NCBI GenBank assembly: GCA_001483205.1
Contig: JPPB01000201.1
Span: 1-14,476, forward strand
Length of the DNA stretch: 14,476 bases
From: an alpha proteobacterium 3107
GTDB taxonomy: Bacteria > Pseudomonadota > Alphaproteobacteria > Rhodobacterales > Rhodobacteraceae
Direction of reading: 5' to 3'
The notes under the pieces are model-generated. The model did no database searches and had not been told where the DNA came from. It saw nothing but the letters and a program-made list of their open reading frames with translations. The translations under genes and the position numbers were made by a program. Below, one piece after another: positions 2,913 through 14,424 of the stretch; the first letter of the stretch is position 1; the number at the start of each line of letters is the position of its first letter.

Positions 2913-3080
2913 TTTGCCGGGACAGATGCAGAGAACAGCCCGAAAGGCCGCGTCCGGCCCGCTCGGGGAGGCGCGAACGCGCCGCCCCGTGGGGGGGCGG
3001 GTCGGCCCGGCCCGGCGTTCCGCCGGGCGGGATCAGGGCCGGGATTTGGACTCAAAATCTGGTCGTCAAGCTATATAGCC
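2913..3080 (+). repeat. Multi-hairpin repeat, copy E1
   Basis: A GC-rich repeat unit of consecutive hairpins: H1 GGCCG/CGGCC (2946-2959), H2 GGCGCG-AA-CGCGCC (2970-2983), H3 CCCC-GT-GGGG (2985-2994) and H4 GCCCGGCG-TTC-CGCCGGGC (3010-3028). A non-hairpin tail follows with GGACTCAAAATC (3048-3059) and the palindrome GCTATATAGC (3070-3079). The reverse complement of 11513-11633 matches it over H1-H4 and the tail with few substitutions. The leading TTTGCCGGGACAG recurs at 11218. The copy sits 22 nt from the infC stop codon. Confidence 0.8.
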
Positions 3081-3101: not shown

Positions 3102-3647
3102 TTATCTGGGCAGCGGGCCGATCATCATTATCATCTGGCGGCCCTCCAGTTTCGGCATGTTCTCGACCCTGCCGATCGCCCTTATGTCCTCGGTCACCCG
3201 CTCCAGCAATTTCCGCCCTAGGCTCTGATGCGCCATCTCGCGCCCGCGAAACCGCAGCGACACCTTCACCTTGTCGCCGTTTTCAAGGAATTTCCGCACG
3301 TTACGCATCTTGACTTCGTAATCATGGGTGTTGGTGTTCGGGCGGAACTTGATTTCCTTGACATCAATCGTCTTCTGCTTCCTGCGCGCCTCGGCCTCGC
3401 GTTTCTGCTGTTCATACTTGAACTTGCCGAAATCCATCACCTTGCAGACCGGGGGGGCCGCGTTCGGGCTGATCTCGACCAGATCAAGGCCCTCCTGCTC
3501 TGCCAGGGCGAGTCCGCGGGACGGGGGAACAACACCGATGTTTTCTCCGTCAGGGCCGATAAGCCGGATTTCGGTGGCCCGGATGCGGTCATTGACGCGG
3601 GGGCCTGTTTCACGCACCGGCGGGGCGTTGTGGGGTCTGCGGGCTAT
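3102..3647 (-). CDS. infC: Translation initiation factor IF-3, proposed AUA start
   Basis: IF-3 binds the 30S subunit, prevents 50S joining and proofreads start-codon/initiator-tRNA pairing. The N-domain ([15 protein letters not shown] through [15 protein letters not shown]), the basic helical linker (EAEARRKQK) and the C-domain ([36 protein letters not shown] end) are all present. The first standard start is a GTG at 3617, giving 171 aa, but it has no Shine-Dalgarno sequence. The frame continues upstream through [10 protein letters not shown], a familiar alphaproteobacterial IF-3 N-terminus, to an ATA codon at 3645-3647 placed 8 nt after AAGGA (3656-3660). Starting there gives 181 aa, close to E. 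coli IF-3 (180 aa), whose gene starts with AUU. A stop codon lies five codons further upstream. Transcribed alone from the promoter at 3687-3715; rpmI/rplT do not follow. The protein identity is certain; the AUA start is inference. Confidence 0.95.
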
Positions 3648-5190: not shown

Positions 5191-5254
5191 GTCTTTGCAT
5201 ATTGGCTTAGCCGGGCAGACGGTTTGGCCACCGATGCGCCATTATGCAGAGGTC
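5191..5254 (-). repeat. Family-A palindromic repeat, copy A1
   Basis: Read on the minus strand it begins GACCTCTGCATAATGGCGC and ends ATATGCAAAGAC. It aligns without gaps to copy A2 with about 80% identity. The outer inverted ends are degenerate on one side (GTCTTTGCAT). It lies in the 132-nt gap between the sulfite reductase and DUF934 genes, 10 nt upstream of the DUF934 Shine-Dalgarno sequence, so it is probably transcribed within the cys mRNA. Confidence 0.85.
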
Positions 5255-5300
5255 TTTCATATCCTCTGCCCGCCCTGCATCATCCGGGGGAAAAACGGCC

Positions 5301-9285: not shown

Positions 9286-9324
9286 ATGCTGAGGGAGCCG
9301 CGCAAGGGGGGGCCGTGATTCCAA

Positions 9325-9389
9325 AACCTCTGCATAATGGCGCGCCGGTGGCCAACTTGTCCGCCCGGCTTGGCCAATATGCAGAGGCC
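9325..9389 (+). repeat. Family-A palindromic repeat, copy A2
   Basis: Ends CCTCTGCAT (9327-9335) and ATGCAGAGG (9379-9387) form a perfect 9-bp outer stem; a second stem TGGCCAA/TTGGCCA lies inside, with GGCGCGCC near the left arm. It lies 39 nt after the lrp-like stop and 63 nt before the rmuC start. The remaining gap holds only GCCAC-AC-GTGGC (9402-9413) and the rmuC ribosome site. Confidence 0.88.
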
Positions 9390-9452: not shown

Positions 9453-10850
9453 ATGGAACAATTCTTCTGGCTGATTGCCGGTGCGTGCGGCGCTCTGGGC
9501 CTGACCCTGCTGTTTCGCCGCCCGGCGCGGGCCGAAATTTCCGCCCTGAAACAGGCACTGGCCGAACAGGACACTGCCCTGCGCGAGGCCCAGAAAGGTG
9601 CCGCCCGCGACGGGGCGCTGGCCGGGGAGCGGAAGGCGGAAATCGACCGCCTGAACGGGGATTTGTCAAAGCTCAGGGCCAGACTGGACGAAGAGGCCCG
9701 AAAGCAGCAGCAGATGACCGGCACCATCGCGCGTCTGGAAACGGCTATGGAAGACACAAGGAAAGCACATGAGGAAAAACTCGCGATGCTGACCGGGATG
9801 CGCCAGGACATGGAAAGCAAATTCCGTGAACTGGCGCAGGAGGCGCTGAAAACCCAGGGCGAGGCGTTTGCGAAATCCAATATTGAAAAGCTCGACGCAA
9901 CCCTGAAGCCGCTGACCAAGGATGTCGGCAGCTTTCGGGAAAAGCTCGAAAACATTCACCGGGAGGCAACCAAGGACCGGCAGGATCTTGAGACCGAAAT
10001 CAAGAACCTCAGCGAACAATCGGCCAAAATCTCGCAGGAAGCGACCGACCTGACCCGCGCGCTCAAAGGCGACCGGCAGAAACAGGGCGCATGGGGAGAG
10101 GTGATCCTTGAAACCATCCTTGAGCGCTCCGGTCTGCGCGAGGGGGAGGAATACGAGGCCCAGGCCCGCCGAACGAATGCCGAAGGCCACCGGATGCAGC
10201 CGGATGTGGTGGTCAATATGCCCGGCCAAAAGACGCTGGTGATCGACAGCAAGGTGTCTCTGCTCGCCTATACCGATGCGGTCAATGCGGAAACGGATGC
10301 GGCATTTGAGGCGGCGCGGAAACGGCATGTCGCATCCCTGCGCGCGCATATCGACGGGCTGGCCGGGAAGGGGTATCAGAGCGCCGAGGGCTTTACGGTC
10401 GATTACGTGATCCTGTTTGTGCCCATTGAGGGCGCGCTGGCAGAGGCGTTGCACGAAGACAGCGGGCTGACGGAATACGCGCTTGGGAAGAATATTATGA
10501 TCGCGACGCCGACGACGCTGATGATGGCGCTGCGGACGATCAAAAATGTGTGGGATGTGGAGCGGCGGAGCAAGAATGCCGAAGAGATCGCCCGGCGGGC
10601 GGGGCGGCTTTACGACAAGGTGGCCGGGTTTGTCAAGAATATGGAGGCCGTCGGCGAACACCTTGGTAAGGCGCAGGAGGCACATCAGAAGGCTTTCGGG
10701 CAGCTTTCGAGAGGGCGCGGCAATGTGCTCGGGCAGGTGGAGACGCTGAAGACCCTGGGCGCGAAGACGACGAAAACCCTTGGGGCGGACTTTGATGACG
10801 AAGGGCCGGAAGAGGCCACGCGGCTGACCCCGGAAAAGACCTCTGCATGA
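9453..10850 (+). CDS. rmuC: DNA recombination protein RmuC
   Basis: A membrane-anchored, coiled-coil protein of the RmuC family (restriction-nuclease-like core), known in E. coli for limiting inversions at short inverted repeats; 465 aa. An N-terminal hydrophobic segment (about residues 4-21) precedes a long charged coiled coil (about 28-205), then the RmuC domain: KQGAWGEVILETILERSGLREG (start near 210), PDVVVNMPG and LVIDSKVSLLAY, YVILFVPIEGALAEAL, IMIATPTTLMMALRTI. The frame is open to 9282, but ATG 9453 has AAAGG 6 nt upstream and puts the membrane anchor first. The last three codons (Thr-Ser-Ala) and the stop lie inside repeat A3. Convergent with topA across 928 nt. Finding RmuC next to a dense inverted-repeat island is notable but may be coincidence. 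Confidence 0.94.
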   Translation: MEQFFWLIAGACGALGLTLLFRRPARAEISALKQALAEQDTALREAQKGAARDGALAGERKAEIDRLNGDLSKLRARLDEEARKQQQMTGTIARLETAMEDTRKAHEEKLAMLTGMRQDMESKFRELAQEALKTQGEAFAKSNIEKLDATLKPLTKDVGSFREKLENIHREATKDRQDLETEIKNLSEQSAKISQEATDLTRALKGDRQKQGAWGEVILETILERSGLREGEEYEAQARRTNAEGHRMQPDVVVNMPGQKTLVIDSKVSLLAYTDAVNAETDAAFEAARKRHVASLRAHIDGLAGKGYQSAEGFTVDYVILFVPIEGALAEALHEDSGLTEYALGKNIMIATPTTLMMALRTIKNVWDVERRSKNAEEIARRAGRLYDKVAGFVKNMEAVGEHLGKAQEAHQKAFGQLSRGRGNVLGQVETLKTLGAKTTKTLGADFDDEGPEEATRLTPEKTSA

Positions 10851-10903
10851 TGGCGCGTCAGTGGCCGGACCATCTGCCCGGCCCAAGCAAATATGCAGAG
10901 GTC
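10838..10903 (+). repeat. Family-A palindromic repeat, copy A3, overlapping the rmuC stop
   Basis: GACCTCTGCAT (10838-10848) and ATGCAGAGGTC (10893-10903) form a perfect 11-bp outer stem, followed by TTTG. The interior (GATGGCGCGTC, GTGGCC, TCTGCCCGG) matches A1 and A2. The left arm supplies the rmuC codons ACC TCT GCA and most of the TGA. The transcript could fold here and end weakly, though the T-run is only three bases. Confidence 0.88.
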
Positions 10904-10908
10904 TTTGC

Positions 10909-11195
10909 AAGGCCGTATCCGGCCCGACAAGGGGGGGTGCGCACCACGCCACCCCATTGAGGGGTGGGCGGCCCGGCCCGGTCTTACGACCGGGCGGGGG
11001 GCAAGGACGAAGGGCGGGACTTCAGAACAGAGGGCAGCGCCCGACCCGGCGGAAGCAAAGCGCCCGCCATGGGGTGAGGCCCGCTTCGGAAACGGTCCGG
11101 GGGACCGTTTCAGGGCCGAACGGGCGGAGCCCCCAGGCGGGCGCTGCCTGGGCAGTTCCGCCGGGCGGGGCGTTTTGGGGGCGATACACCCTTAT
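10909..11195 (+). repeat. Multi-hairpin repeat, copy C1
   Basis: Consecutive hairpins: H1 GGCCG-TATC-CGGCC (10911-10924), a palindrome GGTGCGCACC (10936-10945), H3 ACCCC-ATTGA-GGGGT (10951-10965), H4 GCCCGGTC-TTAC-GACCGGGC (10976-10995), and a long arm pair GGCAGCGCCCG (11033-11043) with CGGGCGCTGCC (11138-11148) whose loop holds element D1. It ends GCGTTTTGGGGGCGATACA, shared with C2, and runs into palindrome B1. Compared with C2 it carries roughly 63 extra nt, essentially D1 and flanks. Confidence 0.8.
11071..11125 (+). repeat. Element D1, perfect inverted partner of D2
   Basis: All 55 nt are the exact reverse complement of 11717-11771. Inside, GAAACGGTCC (11089-11098) and GGACCGTTTC (11102-11111) pair around GGG, and outer segments GCCCG/CGGGC and TTCGG/CCGAA extend the stem. 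It is absent from the otherwise matching copy C2, so it was inserted into C1 or lost from C2. Confidence 0.85.
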
Positions 11196-11206
11196 CCGCG
11201 GATAAG
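11191..11206. repeat. 16-bp palindrome family B, copy B1
   Basis: Perfect palindrome CTTATCCGCGGATAAG, directly at the end of repeat C1 and 12 nt before the start of C2. Same sequence at 11648, 14409 and (cut) 14464. Confidence 0.85.
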
Positions 11207-11217
11207 GCATGGCCCAA

Positions 11218-11465
11218 TTTGCCGGGACAGCGAACAGCACGGAAGGCCGCGTCCGGCCCGCATAGGGGGCACGCGCCGCTCACCCCTCAATGGGGTGGGC
11301 GGCCCGGCCCGGTCTTACGACCGGGCGGGGGGCAAGGACGAAGGGCGGGGCTTCAAGAGAGAGGGCAGCGCCCGGCCCGGCGGGTGCAAAGCGCCCGCCA
11401 TGGGGCGGGGCGGGCGCTGCCCGGCATTCTGCCGGGCGGGGCGTTTTGGGGGCGATACAGCCTTA
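11218..11465 (+). repeat. Multi-hairpin repeat, copy C2
   Basis: Starts TTTGCCGGGACAG as E1 does. It then has H1 GGCCG-CGTC-CGGCC (11245-11258), H3 ACCCC-TCAAT-GGGGT (11282-11296), H4 GCCCGGTC-TTAC-GACCGGGC (11307-11326), the 12-bp arm pair GGGCAGCGCCCG (11363-11374) with CGGGCGCTGCCC (11411-11422), and H6 GCCCGGCA-TTC-TGCCGGGC (11419-11437). From H4 on it is nearly identical to C1 except for the missing D element. The H3 loop is inverted relative to C1. It runs into the composite at 11464. Confidence 0.8.
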
Positions 11466-11510
11466 TGCAGAGGTCTTTATCCGCGGATAAGGGCAAGACC
11501 TCTGACCTAT
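11464..11510. repeat. Composite of family-A end and palindrome (copy B2)
   Basis: TATGCAGAGGTCTTT matches the right end of A1. It is followed by TTATCCGCGGATAAG (11477-11491; the expected first C is T, so 15 of 16 positions match), then GGCAAGACCTCTGACCTAT, which also follows B4. Together CAGAGGTCTT (11468-11477) and AAGACCTCTG (11495-11504) form a perfect 10-bp outer stem around the palindrome. Confidence 0.8.
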
Positions 11511-11512
11511 AG

Positions 11513-11633
11513 CCTGACGCCCGGATTTTGAGTCCAAGTCCCGGCCCTGTTCCCGCCCGGCGCTTGCGCCGGGCCTCACCCCCCCACAGGGCGGCGCGTT
11601 CGCGCCTACCCGTGCGGGCCGGACGCGGCCTTT
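11513..11633 (-). repeat. Multi-hairpin repeat, copy E2
   Basis: Reverse-orientation homologue of E1. On the minus strand it reads AAAGGCCGCGTCCGGCC (H1, 11617-11630), GGCGCG-AA-CGCGCC (H2, 11593-11606), a weak CCC-TGT-GGG, then GCCCGGCGC-AA-GCGCCGGGC (H4, 11555-11574) and the tail ACTTGGACTCAAAATCCGG. H4 is one pair longer than in E1 and its pairs differ by paired changes. Confidence 0.8.
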
Positions 11634-11647
11634 CGGGGGGGGCGCAG

Positions 11648-11663
11648 CTTATCCGCGGATAAG
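11648..11663. repeat. 16-bp palindrome family B, copy B3
   Basis: Perfect CTTATCCGCGGATAAG, 15 nt beyond the H1 end of repeat E2 and 116 nt from the topA stop codon. Confidence 0.85.
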
Positions 11664-11716
11664 GTCAGGTTTGGCGACTTGTTCCCTGATGGTCCGCCGC
11701 GCCGTCATCGGGCTCT

Positions 11717-11771
11717 GCCCGTTCGGCCCTGAAACGGTCCCCCGGACCGTTTCCGAAGCGGGCCTCACCCC
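11717..11771 (-). terminator. Element D2, long hairpin just downstream of topA
   Basis: Perfect inverted copy of D1, starting 8 nt past the topA stop. On the minus strand the RNA would fold GCCCG/CGGGC, TTCGG/CCGAA and AAACGGTCC/GGACCGTTT around a GGG loop, about 19 pairs with a few bulged bases. No T-tract follows, so it would act as a rho-assisted terminator or 3'-end stabiliser rather than a textbook intrinsic terminator. It also qualifies as a repeat. Confidence 0.55.
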
Positions 11772-11778
11772 CGCAGGC

Positions 11779-14295
11779 TCACGATTTCCGCCGCCGCCGC
11801 GTTCCCTTTTTCGCCGCCTTCTCGGCGATCAGTTGCACGGCCATCTCGATGGTGACATCCGCCGGGTTCATATCCCCCGGCAGAGTGGCATTCACCTTTT
11901 CCCACTTCACATAAGGCCCGTATCGCCCGTCCATGACATTGACCGCGCCGCCGCTTTCGGGGTGCTCACCCAGCGCCTTCAGCGGTTTCATCGCCCCCGC
12001 GCGACCGTTCCCGCGAGAGGCAGCCTTTCGCGCCAGCTCTTCCACCGCCCGGTTCATGCCGATGGTGAAAACATCCTCAACGTCCTTGAGGTTGGCATAG
12101 AGCCGCCCGTGCCGGACAAAGGGACCATAGCGGCCAATCCCCGCCTCGATCATTGCGCCGTCTTCCGGATGCGGCCCGATTTCGCGCGGCAGATCAAGCA
12201 GCATCAGCGCTTTCTCGAGCGTCATGTCGTCCGGCGACCACCCCTTGGGCAGGCTGGCGCGGGGCGGTTTCGTCCCGCCGTCACCCGGCTCGCCCCGCTG
12301 CACATAAGGCCCGAACCGGCCATTGCGCAAAGAGATCGCATCGCCGCCGTCATCGCCCAGAACCCTGTCGTCGGGGCCGTTCTGCCCGTCCCCGTCCCCC
12401 GGCGGACCAAAGGGGCGGGTAAACCGGCACTCGGGATAATTCGAGCACCCGATAAACGCGCCCCCGGCCCGCGCCGTGCGGATCGACAGCCGCCCGGCCC
12501 CGCAATGGGGGCACAGGCGGGGATCGGCCCCGTCCTCGCCGGGCGGAAACAGGTGCGGCTCCAGCACCTCGTTGATCTTCTCCAGCACATCGGTGATCCG
12601 CAGCTCGGACGTTTCGGCGATGGCCGCCGAGAAATCCCGCCAGAATTGCGACAGCACCGCCTTGTAATCCGCATCCCCGGCGGAAATCCGGTCAAGCTCT
12701 GCCTCAAGATCGGCGGTAAACCCATAGCCCACGTATTTGCGGAAATAATTGGTCAGGAAAACGGTGACCAGCCGCCCCTTATCCTCGGGGAACAGGCGGC
12801 TCTTGTCCTTGCGCACATAGCCGCGTTCCTGAATGGTCGTGACCACAGAGGCATAGGTCGAGGGCCGCCCGATGCCCAGCTCTTCCATCTTCTTGACCAG
12901 TGTTGCCTCGGTATAGCGGGGCGGCGGCTGGGTGAAATGCTGTTCGGGGGTGATGTCGCCTTTCTCAAGCGGCTCCCCCGCCGTCACCTGGGGCAGAAGT
13001 CTGTCATCGCCCGCCGCAGCGCTGTCATCGCGGCCTTCCTCATAGACCCGGAGAAAGCCGTCAAACAGCACCACCTGCCCGGTGGCGCGCAGCCCGACCT
13101 GCCCGTCGGCACTGCTGATCTCGACCGTCGTGCGTTCCAGCCGCGCCGCTTCCATCTGGCTGGCAATGGTGCGTTTCCAGATCAGACCGTAGAGGTCACG
13201 CTGGTCTTTCGCCAGTCCGGTCAGCTTGCCCGGATCCCGCGACATATCCGTGGGGCGGATACATTCATGGGCTTCCTGGGCGTTTTTGGCCTTGTTCTTA
13301 TACATGCGCGGCGCGGCGGGCACATAGTCCCCGCCATAGCGCGCCCGGATTTCGTCCCGTGCCGCCATCACCGCTTCGGGGGCCATGTCGATGCCGTCGG
13401 TCCGCATATAGGTGATAAAGCCCGCTTCATAGAGCCTCTGGGCGGTGCTCATGGTCTGGCGCGCGCCAAAGCCGAACTTGCGGCTGGCCTCCTGCTGAAG
13501 CGTCGATGTCATAAAGGGTGGCGCGGGGTTTCGGGCCGCCGGTTTCGCCTCGACCGATGTGACGGTCAGCGCGCGCGCCCGCACCGCCTGCACCGCCAGG
13601 TCTGCGGCGGCCTGGCTCTCAAGGTCGTATTTGCCGAGCTTCCGCCCCCCCAGCACCGTCAGCCGGGCCTCGAATGTCTGCCTGCGCGGTGTGGTCAGAA
13701 CCGCCCCGACTGACCAGTATTCGCGGGTGCGGAACGCCTCGATCTCCATCTCGCGCTCGACAATCAGGCGCAGGCACACCGATTGCACCCGGCCCGCCGA
13801 CCGCGCCCCCGGCAGCTTGCGCCACAGAACCGGCGACAGGGTGAACCCCACCAGATAATCCAGCGCGCGGCGGGCAAGATAGGCCTCGACCAGCGGCGCA
13901 TCGACGGTGCGCGGGGTTTTCATCGCCTCGGTCACGGCGGATTTGGTGATCGCGTTGAAAACCACACGCCTGACATCGGTTGATGCCCTGATCGCGCGGC
14001 GCTTTGTCAGCGTTTCCTGCAAATGCCAGCTTATCGCCTCGCCTTCCCGGTCCGGGTCAGTGGCGAGAATCAGCGTGTCATCCTCTTTCAGCGCATCGGC
14101 AATCGCCTTGATATGCTTGCGCGAGCTGCTGCCGACCTCCCATTTCATCTCGAAATTCTGATCGGGATTGACCGAGCCATCCTGGGCAGGCAGGTCGCGC
14201 ACATGCCCGTAAGAGGCCAGCACCGTATAGTCATTGCCAAGGTATTTGTTGATGGTTTTGGCCTTGGCGGGCGATTCGACGACAACGACGGGCAT
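11779..14295 (-). CDS. topA: DNA topoisomerase I (type IA)
   Basis: Relaxes negative supercoils by single-strand passage; 838 aa, similar in size to E. coli TopA (865). The Toprim domain begins VVVVESPAKAKTINKYLG with catalytic E7 and has the metal site DPDREGE (80-86). SAGRVQSV (166-173) follows, and the active tyrosine is Y296 in FITYMRTDG, with R298 beside it. GIGRPSTYASVV (474-485) is also typical. Near residues 595-623 one zinc-ribbon survives (C595, C598, C617, C623). The C-terminus then has three short repeats (NGRFGPYVQRG, IGRYGPFVRHG, DGRYGPYVKW), the alphaproteobacterial type of topoisomerase C-terminal repeat, and a basic tail (KKGTRRRRKS). AAAGGA about 5-6 nt upstream supports the start. 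Convergent with rmuC; repeat elements flank it on both sides. Confidence 0.97.
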   Translation of the reverse strand: MPVVVVESPAKAKTINKYLGNDYTVLASYGHVRDLPAQDGSVNPDQNFEMKWEVGSSSRKHIKAIADALKEDDTLILATDPDREGEAISWHLQETLTKRRAIRASTDVRRVVFNAITKSAVTEAMKTPRTVDAPLVEAYLARRALDYLVGFTLSPVLWRKLPGARSAGRVQSVCLRLIVEREMEIEAFRTREYWSVGAVLTTPRRQTFEARLTVLGGRKLGKYDLESQAAADLAVQAVRARALTVTSVEAKPAARNPAPPFMTSTLQQEASRKFGFGARQTMSTAQRLYEAGFITYMRTDGIDMAPEAVMAARDEIRARYGGDYVPAAPRMYKNKAKNAQEAHECIRPTDMSRDPGKLTGLAKDQRDLYGLIWKRTIASQMEAARLERTTVEISSADGQVGLRATGQVVLFDGFLRVYEEGRDDSAAAGDDRLLPQVTAGEPLEKGDITPEQHFTQPPPRYTEATLVKKMEELGIGRPSTYASVVTTIQERGYVRKDKSRLFPEDKGRLVTVFLTNYFRKYVGYGFTADLEAELDRISAGDADYKAVLSQFWRDFSAAIAETSELRITDVLEKINEVLEPHLFPPGEDGADPRLCPHCGAGRLSIRTARAGGAFIGCSNYPECRFTRPFGPPGDGDGQNGPDDRVLGDDGGDAISLRNGRFGPYVQRGEPGDGGTKPPRASLPKGWSPDDMTLEKALMLLDLPREIGPHPEDGAMIEAGIGRYGPFVRHGRLYANLKDVEDVFTIGMNRAVEELARKAASRGNGRAGAMKPLKALGEHPESGGAVNVMDGRYGPYVKWEKVNATLPGDMNPADVTIEMAVQLIAEKAAKKGTRRRRKS

Positions 14296-14408: not shown

Positions 14409-14424
14409 CTTATCCGCGGATAAG
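14409..14424. repeat. 16-bp palindrome family B, copy B4
   Basis: Perfect CTTATCCGCGGATAAG upstream of topA. The following GGCAAGACCTCTGACCTAT (14424-14442) is identical to the sequence after B2, so the repeated unit is larger than the palindrome (about 33 nt shared). Confidence 0.85.

Follow-up and report, generated by a model that had tools for sequence, protein, structure and literature searches.

What are the hairpin-rich repeats that crowd the space between two convergent genes, rmuC and topA, on a contig from the Rhodobacteraceae—RNAs whose shape is held by selection, or small genomic passengers that multiply as DNA? A preliminary description of the window (the whole of contig C201, 14,476 bases) had noted four related blocks, E1, C1, C2, and E2, whose stems change on both arms at once while the loops vary freely, and had suggested a structured non-autonomous element or a structured RNA family. 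It had proposed a covariance model of the copies in related genomes, a covariation test, and a search of Rfam, and had named gene conversion within arms as one explanation that would count against it. Here we report that short hairpin-linked repeats sit behind genes in many Rhodobacteraceae, and that their folds are kept while their letters change.

Anatomy of the repeat blocks in the window

The window belongs to a draft genome of 2.17 Mb in 337 contigs, 93% complete. Pfam identified infC, a sirohaem synthase, an AsnC-type regulator, and rmuC, and NCBIfam identified topA; the titles of the 80 named loci kept as TopA relatives are almost all Rhodobacteraceae or their genera, the best being 78% identical. 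The blocks C1, C2, and E2, along with a second copy of a module D, lie between rmuC (which ends at 10850) and topA (which ends at 11779), and E1 stands behind infC (minus strand, ends at 3102). The stems quoted in the preliminary description are present in the sequence, with terminal hairpins in all four blocks (starting at 3011+, 10977+, 11308+, 11420+, and 11573-), and the proposed kinship is real, with homology scores for E1 of 73 bits against E2, 28 bits against C2, and 23 bits against C1. By contrast, neither C1 nor C2 stands as a unit—each is a mosaic of cores, D insert, and other repeats, such that C1 consists of a first core, a second core with the 62-base D insert in its loop, and a tail, C2 of two cores, and each E block of a core plus leader and tail (Table 1). 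Measured against dinucleotide shuffles, folding is far stronger in C1 (z -5.15) and C2 (z -5.42) but only slightly stronger in E1 (z -2.13) and E2 (z -1.82), where 2/200 and 12/200 shuffles, respectively, did as well.

Table 1. Repeat features in the window, by position, with strand and the evidence for each
Feature	Position	Strand	Evidence and remarks
E1, E-type copy	2913..3080	+	core 2945-3031 with 5' leader and 3' tail; R1 30.5 bits
T repeat, inverted ends AAAGACCTCTGCAT / ATGCAGAGGTCTTT, at end of rmuC	10835..10906	+	part of the C/E mosaic
C1 first core, inner module B, terminal hairpin TC-TTAC-GA	10909..10997	+	E profile 10903-11004, 55 bits; without R1 match
C1 second core, GGGCAGCGCCCG ... 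GCCGGGCGG, D insert in loop	11032..11168	+	sequence and fold
D module, 62 bases, hairpin within C1 core loop	11071..11132	+	31 matches, some partial, in fetched stretches
14-bp palindrome TTATCCGCGGATAA, between C1 and C2	11192..11205		further copies at 11477-11490, 11649-11662, 14410-14423
C2 first core, inner module B, terminal hairpin TC-TTAC-GA	11240..11330	+	E profile 11218-11330, 57 bits; without R1 match
C2 second core, nearest the family-wide form, terminal hairpin CA-TTC-TG	11363..11440	+	R1 60.3 bits; one of the 13 R1 seeds
E2, E-type copy, inner module A, terminal hairpin CGC-AA-GCG, 3' tail	11508..11651	-	E profile; without R1 match
Second D copy, directly behind topA	11710..11771	-	sequence comparison, 98% complementary to first

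Across the host genome, the C block has 101 BLAST matches and the E block 50, in two overlapping sets; 40 first-look candidates were scored in each. At least 17 of the 101 C-block matches start within 6 bases of a contig start or finish at a contig's last base; the hairpin repeats thus probably broke the assembly at many places, and the host copy numbers are underestimates. The whole E1 block has a single match among plasmid records, over half its length, and relatives match only its middle, which suggests that the leader and tail of the E blocks belong to the host genome alone. As a side observation, the E tail TTGGACTCAAAATC (window 3046-3059 and E2) resembles the anticodon arm of a tRNA-Leu(CAA); when its source was sought among tRNAs, a scan of 26 loci found no tRNA.

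A core shared across the Rhodobacteraceae

When 60 relatives were searched with E1, partial matches appeared in 13, and most of these, once folded, share one form. The common core spans about 86 bases and comprises a 17-bp outer stem (GGGCAGCGCCCGxCCCG / CGGGxCGGGCGCTGCCC), an inner hairpin, and a terminal hairpin (GCCCGGCG / CGCCGGGC) that shares a GCCC with the outer stem. Its four mutually complementary arms, a, b, a', and b', are arranged so that the outer stem a:b' encloses the inner hairpin b:a'. A covariance model built from 13 sequences (R1) matches 73 of 149 family genomes including the host, each of another genus, and single genomes have as many as 25 matches; the core is hence family-wide and not peculiar to the host genome. 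Leaving the host aside, 72/148 family genomes match, vs 1/140 other genomes of a draw from the class, 119 of which came without a listed kinship (Fisher p 1e-24), and without the eight seed genomes and the host the count is 64/140. These numbers are lower bounds under strict filters, since G068 and G162 are unmatched yet hold the core with a long insert at the cysS-cimA junction described below. No R1 match was found in the 80 named topA neighbourhoods.

R1 has 22 matches in the host genome. With E limited to 0.01, it recovers just two of the window's copies, the core of E1 and the second core of C2; the E profile ties C1, the first half of C2, and E2 to the family core. Among 89 copies retained from relatives, borders are sharp (A|GGGC, and GGGC then purines), with A at base -1 in 82% and flanks otherwise near random. 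As regards MITEs, which are marked by terminal inverted repeats and a target-site duplication, the ends of these 89 copies are of GGGC type only, and no fixed duplication was seen at their borders. Two loci of one genome (L132 and L133, both G009) are alike over roughly 25 bases on the downstream side and over part of the flank upstream, and a longer unit seems to have been copied there.

Paired change within the fold and among four arms

The claim of paired substitution stood up well across the family. Over 110 aligned matches, 94.4% of cells are paired (39-47% in slid and 81% in shuffled controls), 23 of 31 pairs show two-sided change, and covariation reaches 0.342, vs 0.115 shuffled and 0.024-0.040 slid. 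The host genome gave the same picture at lower values (45 matches; 90.5% paired; 20 of 31 pairs changed on both sides; covariation 0.190 vs 0.071 shuffled and 0.013-0.030 slid in a structure-fitted alignment). We then applied a tree-aware test in the manner of R-scape, with parsimony-counted substitutions re-placed randomly on the tree in 200 replicates, to the best 89 of the 110 matches (one per locus, eight of them seeds; the 21 set aside mostly represent a retained copy read on its other strand). Under this null, 11 of the 31 model pairs are significant at E<0.05 within the structure, and the most variable pairs are the two innermost of the terminal hairpin, with about 20 substitutions per side. 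Structure-fitted alignments lean towards the model, and the test was therefore repeated on a sequence-only alignment, where three pairs reach E<0.05 among all pairs, all of them inside predicted helices.

The next-best pair in the sequence-only test, 39-50 (E 0.19), and pair 35-59 (E 4.4, paired in 89/89) join arms that are unpaired in the nested fold. The 3' arm can pair with the 5' arm or with the inner 3' arm, two arms of nearly the same sequence (AGCGCCCG...). One column from each arm (8, 27, 35, and 59) reads GCGC, GTGC, or GAGC in 79 of 89 copies, and the remaining rows read CGCG in five copies from five genera, ATAT in one, and a mixture in four. The nested fold is more stable in all 89 copies, at a mean of -56.3 vs -34.7 kcal/mol for two tandem hairpins; with respect to the shared GCCC, both GGGC partners are available in 66/89, the 3' one alone in 13, and the 5' one alone in 10. 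Copying between arms would produce four-way change of this kind, and selection for two alternative folds could do the same.

Cassette shuffling in the host genome

Within the host genome, the paired differences take another form. Terminal hairpins collected with an open pattern (52 matches, some counted twice) fall into few alleles with the loop bound to the stem: the loop is almost invariably TTGC or TTAC on TC stems, usually TTC on CG stems, and AA on CGC stems. The loops do not, then, vary freely. A second pattern, restricted to the alleles named from that result, recovered 66 copies (30 TC-TTRC-GA, 19 CG-TTC-CG, 10 CGC-AA-GCG, and rarer forms). Each of the three common terminal alleles occurs with inner modules A, B, and canonical, and each with and without the E tail; the paired differences of the host genome are therefore mostly whole-cassette exchange. 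The initial observation thus holds for the hairpins, their kinship, and their paired change, the last above chance in both host and family, and fails for the free loops and for C1 and C2 as units. Gene conversion within arms, which it had set against itself, is partly borne out, as cassettes are shuffled in the host and four arms change together across genera.

Other repeats accompany these cassettes. The T repeat, about 70 bases long, is found in the window also at 5193-5256 and 9323-9388 and elsewhere in the host genome. The 14-bp palindrome occurs 134 times in the host genome (the pattern read backwards, 0 times) and in 4 of 148 other family genomes. Seven exact copies stand in tandem with a 30-base period at L040 726-949 (G000:C324), with one further unit carrying a base change. 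Another family member (G006) has four copies around a ParA-like and a ParB-like gene, in a region that matches two Loktanella salsilacus plasmids at ~98% identity, an arrangement from which the palindrome may be a parS-type site in that genome; four copies with similar spacing occur in G169. A search of the host genome with the G006 ParB, run without a positive control, gave no match.

Position relative to genes

We classified 67 of the relatives' copies with a simple codon-based gene caller, the other 22 of the 89 being excluded from context counts as lying at edges (12) or inside predicted frames (10). The extragenic position behind genes that is known from REPs was borne out: 22 copies lie between convergent genes, 42 between codirectional genes, and 3 between divergent ones, at a median distance of 59 bases from the upstream stop. 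With a stricter cut-off, 1/60 element junctions is divergent vs 8/23 other spaced junctions from those loci (p 9e-5). The direction of the codirectional copies is random, 19 running along the genes and 23 against. TTTT follows within 12 bases of the 3' end in only 3/89, so that these hairpins do not look like intrinsic terminators, with the exception of one Leisingera plasmid site (S4, below). Rfam 15 gave no match in the window at gathering score; at E up to 1, over six loci and over window 10800-11800, only four chance-level matches arose, all below gathering scores. The suggestion of a structured RNA family is accordingly not demonstrated by these results; on the reading preferred below, a side effect on mRNA ends would be likely. 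Small RNAs of Paracoccus denitrificans are said to be conserved in Rhodobacteraceae (PMC5107571), and some of those might be transcribed from repeats of this family.

Occupied, reversed, and element-free sites

When flanks were compared with one another by BLAST, seven loci, each from a different genome, turned out to share a junction, with three of the seven in reverse orientation. NCBIfam annotation of one (L152) gave cysS before and cimA after. We then compared 30 cimA loci, which are the closest 30 of the 149 genomes and not a random sample; two (L305 and L317) had no ATG found, and their gaps are approximate. All 30 have a cysS-type frame upstream. The core occupies the junction in 12/30 (32 to 72 bits), six each way, with gaps of 104-334 bases; the genes overlap or nearly touch in 9/30 (gap -4 to 5); and the remaining 9/30 have other spacers, several with other palindromes. 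Six more occupied genomes (G103, G094, G130, G015, G012, and G117) bring the junction to at least 18 of 149. The cysS stop lies within ATGA at 12 of 21 spaced junctions (7/12 with the core), vs 24/93 TGA stops among the predicted genes of element loci—a moderate excess (p 0.002)—and this ATGA is likely the fossil of an old overlapping start. The pattern suggests that the core inserted where the two genes had once overlapped. Copies may also have been lost or turned around in place more than once, and some could be old and vertical; no exact target duplication marks the insertion.

Four spacers without a core match (L294, L308, L310, and L316) contain other palindrome types, that of L316 having a long outer stem of unrelated sequence, as if the junction were a hot spot for hairpins in general. 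Beside the core in the cysS-cimA spacer of L297, in another genus, lies a sequence closely resembling D, GGCCCTGAACCGGTCCACCGGACCGTTTCC, and D may therefore be older than the host genome.

The core is also carried on named plasmids of Phaeobacter, Leisingera, Tritonibacter, Ruegeria, and Sulfitobacter. One family copy (L018) has 61 matches in plasmid records, mostly Phaeobacter and Leisingera; as to a phage origin, the same copy has no match in 50,697 phage records. Five plasmids of a single species, Leisingera aquaemixtae, differ at each of the sites compared. At S2, three strains have the element one way and two another element the opposite way with a different spacer; at S3, a short element is present in one of five and the terminal hairpin alone in four; and at S4, the 25 bases between two AGCGCCC repeats are missing in two of five. 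One-sided changes are also present in single copies of this species. At given sites, then, the core is present, absent, reversed, or shortened, depending on the genome. Discrete borders at unrelated sites, the states of the cysS-cimA junction, plasmid differences within one species, and fold-preserving change across genera together lend good support to the structured non-autonomous element that had been proposed. The junction and the Leisingera plasmids amount to natural experiments, with occupied, reversed, and element-free sites side by side.

What multiplies the repeats and keeps their arms matched

We consider it probable that the hairpin units are non-autonomous extragenic palindromes spread through the Rhodobacteraceae, multiplying as DNA and amplified into mosaics in the host genome. 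On such a model, the core itself would multiply as DNA, with a folded single strand probably serving as the substrate that a host or transposon enzyme cuts and joins, and founder copies with new hairpins would seed sub-families. Through slippage and template switching, short direct repeats inside the core would let arms be lost, exchanged, or copied onto one another, and this would both keep the arms matched and produce mosaics; in the host genome, the family would have been amplified and mixed with D, T, and the 14-bp palindrome. Several observations count against this reading: no mover was found among Y1 transposases (below), neither a clean target duplication nor an exact empty site turned up, R1 matches only two of the window copies, and E1 and E2 fold barely above shuffles; placement behind genes, for its part, fits an RNA role as well. 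A mover of the REP/RAYT type is unlikely. The Y1 transposase domain (PF01797) has no match in the host genome, and in the family the element occurs in 8/15 genomes with it vs 65/134 without (p 0.79; element counts are lower bounds). In a bolder version, which is a doubtful one, the four arms police each other: the folded strand would both move and rewrite unmatched arms, by way of a mover unrelated to REP transposases. If true, the structure would be held without site-by-site selection, direction would flip, and overlapping genes such as cysS and cimA would be split repeatedly.

An RNA role is the natural rival, and the folded form could have been kept as 3' untranslated or intercistronic stabilisers, processing sites, or partial terminators, with stems selected at each site. 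The position of copies behind genes, the repeated occupation of the cysS-cimA junction by the core and by other palindromes, the many G-U among the standard pairs, and the run of T5-T6 after the S4 copy in four of five Leisingera strains all speak for it. Promoter avoidance explains the placement as well, however, and direction relative to genes is random here as at cysS-cimA (19 vs 23; 6 vs 6), TTTT is rare near the hairpin end, one-sided changes and internal deletions occur within one species, and changes in the host genome arrive as cassettes; we regard this role as unlikely, if still deserving of attention. A discrete regulatory RNA, riboswitch-like or a small RNA with the overlapping GCCC arm as its switch, would make sense of the 66/89 copies in which both the 5' and the 3' GGGC can pair with the shared arm. 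It sits poorly with neighbour genes that differ at most sites, with both directions, with several to 25 matches per genome in many genomes, and with the lack of an Rfam family, and we judge it very improbable. Might mutation alone suffice, through hairpin-templated repair and slippage that match arms and yield covariation without selection, leaving the repeats as inert relics? The concerted changes of four arms, the 25-base length difference between internal direct repeats, and the exchange of modules speak for it, yet by itself it leaves the family-wide spread, the sharp borders, the two directions at one junction, and the amplification in the host unexplained, and as a full account it is quite improbable. 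Finally, the fragmented assembly, with so many C-block matches touching a contig end, might suggest chance or an assembly artefact of G+C-rich DNA, an explanation to which we give almost no credence, as the same element is found in one-contig genomes and named plasmids, the slid and shuffled controls are far lower, and the class control stands at 1/140.

Mobile palindromes multiplying as DNA, the reading we prefer, would bear on how covariation is interpreted. Covariation is widely taken as a sign of functional RNA, and here it is seen in DNA repeats with random direction, shuffled cassettes, and concerted arms, making them a good test case for RNA selection vs DNA-level copying, as well as good material for how small genomic passengers persist and move.

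Comparison with known repeat families

RIME of rhizobia and Bru-RS of Brucella are alphaproteobacterial intergenic palindromes of about 100 bases, and RIME are arranged as mosaics. By description, which is the basis of this comparison, our repeats resemble both in size and position and RIME also in architecture: terminal alleles combine with several inner modules, and C1 and C2 show the BIME/RIME type of mosaic. The class draw has next to no R1 matches beyond the family itself, so there is no sign of shared descent with either. ERIC and RU (PMC2759123, PMC2229807) are likewise alike by description, as non-autonomous intergenic repeats of about 100-170 bases, but those belong to the enterobacteria, a different clade.

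The closest behavioural parallel is with REPs, which the text of PMC3733652 describes as palindromes present in high copy number in intergenic DNA, where they follow genes and are mostly flanked by convergent or codirectional pairs, with sub-families that carry alternative complementary stem bases and with dimers that can fold into larger structures. The same text reports CGTC REPs, the class typical of alphaproteobacteria, from all alphaproteobacterial orders, without a dedicated transposase, and REPs proper may accordingly exist in Rhodobacterales too; seven Rhodobacteraceae name stems are absent from its text, and a Rhodobacterales entry is possible in its figures, which were outside our scope. 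The core resembles the GTAG and CGTC REPs of that account in its high copy number, its place behind genes, and its alternative complementary stem bases, and the CGTC class also in having no dedicated transposase. It differs in form: about 86 bases and three linked helices, as opposed to the single hairpin of 20-40 bases given there, a size that the terminal hairpin alone does fit. Whereas CGTC repeats typically have A-T stem ends in the same source, those of the core are G-C; it has no fixed tag like the unpaired GTAG or CGTC at one end of a REP (CGTC nearby in 25/89, GACG in 26/89) and no link to Y1/RAYT genes, with which GTAG REPs go. Given these differences in tag, size, and RAYT association, we do not file the core as a REP. 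No description of it was found in one library of open-access papers, figures and supplements being outside that scope. What the window holds is best read as a family of non-autonomous extragenic palindromes that behave much as REPs do.
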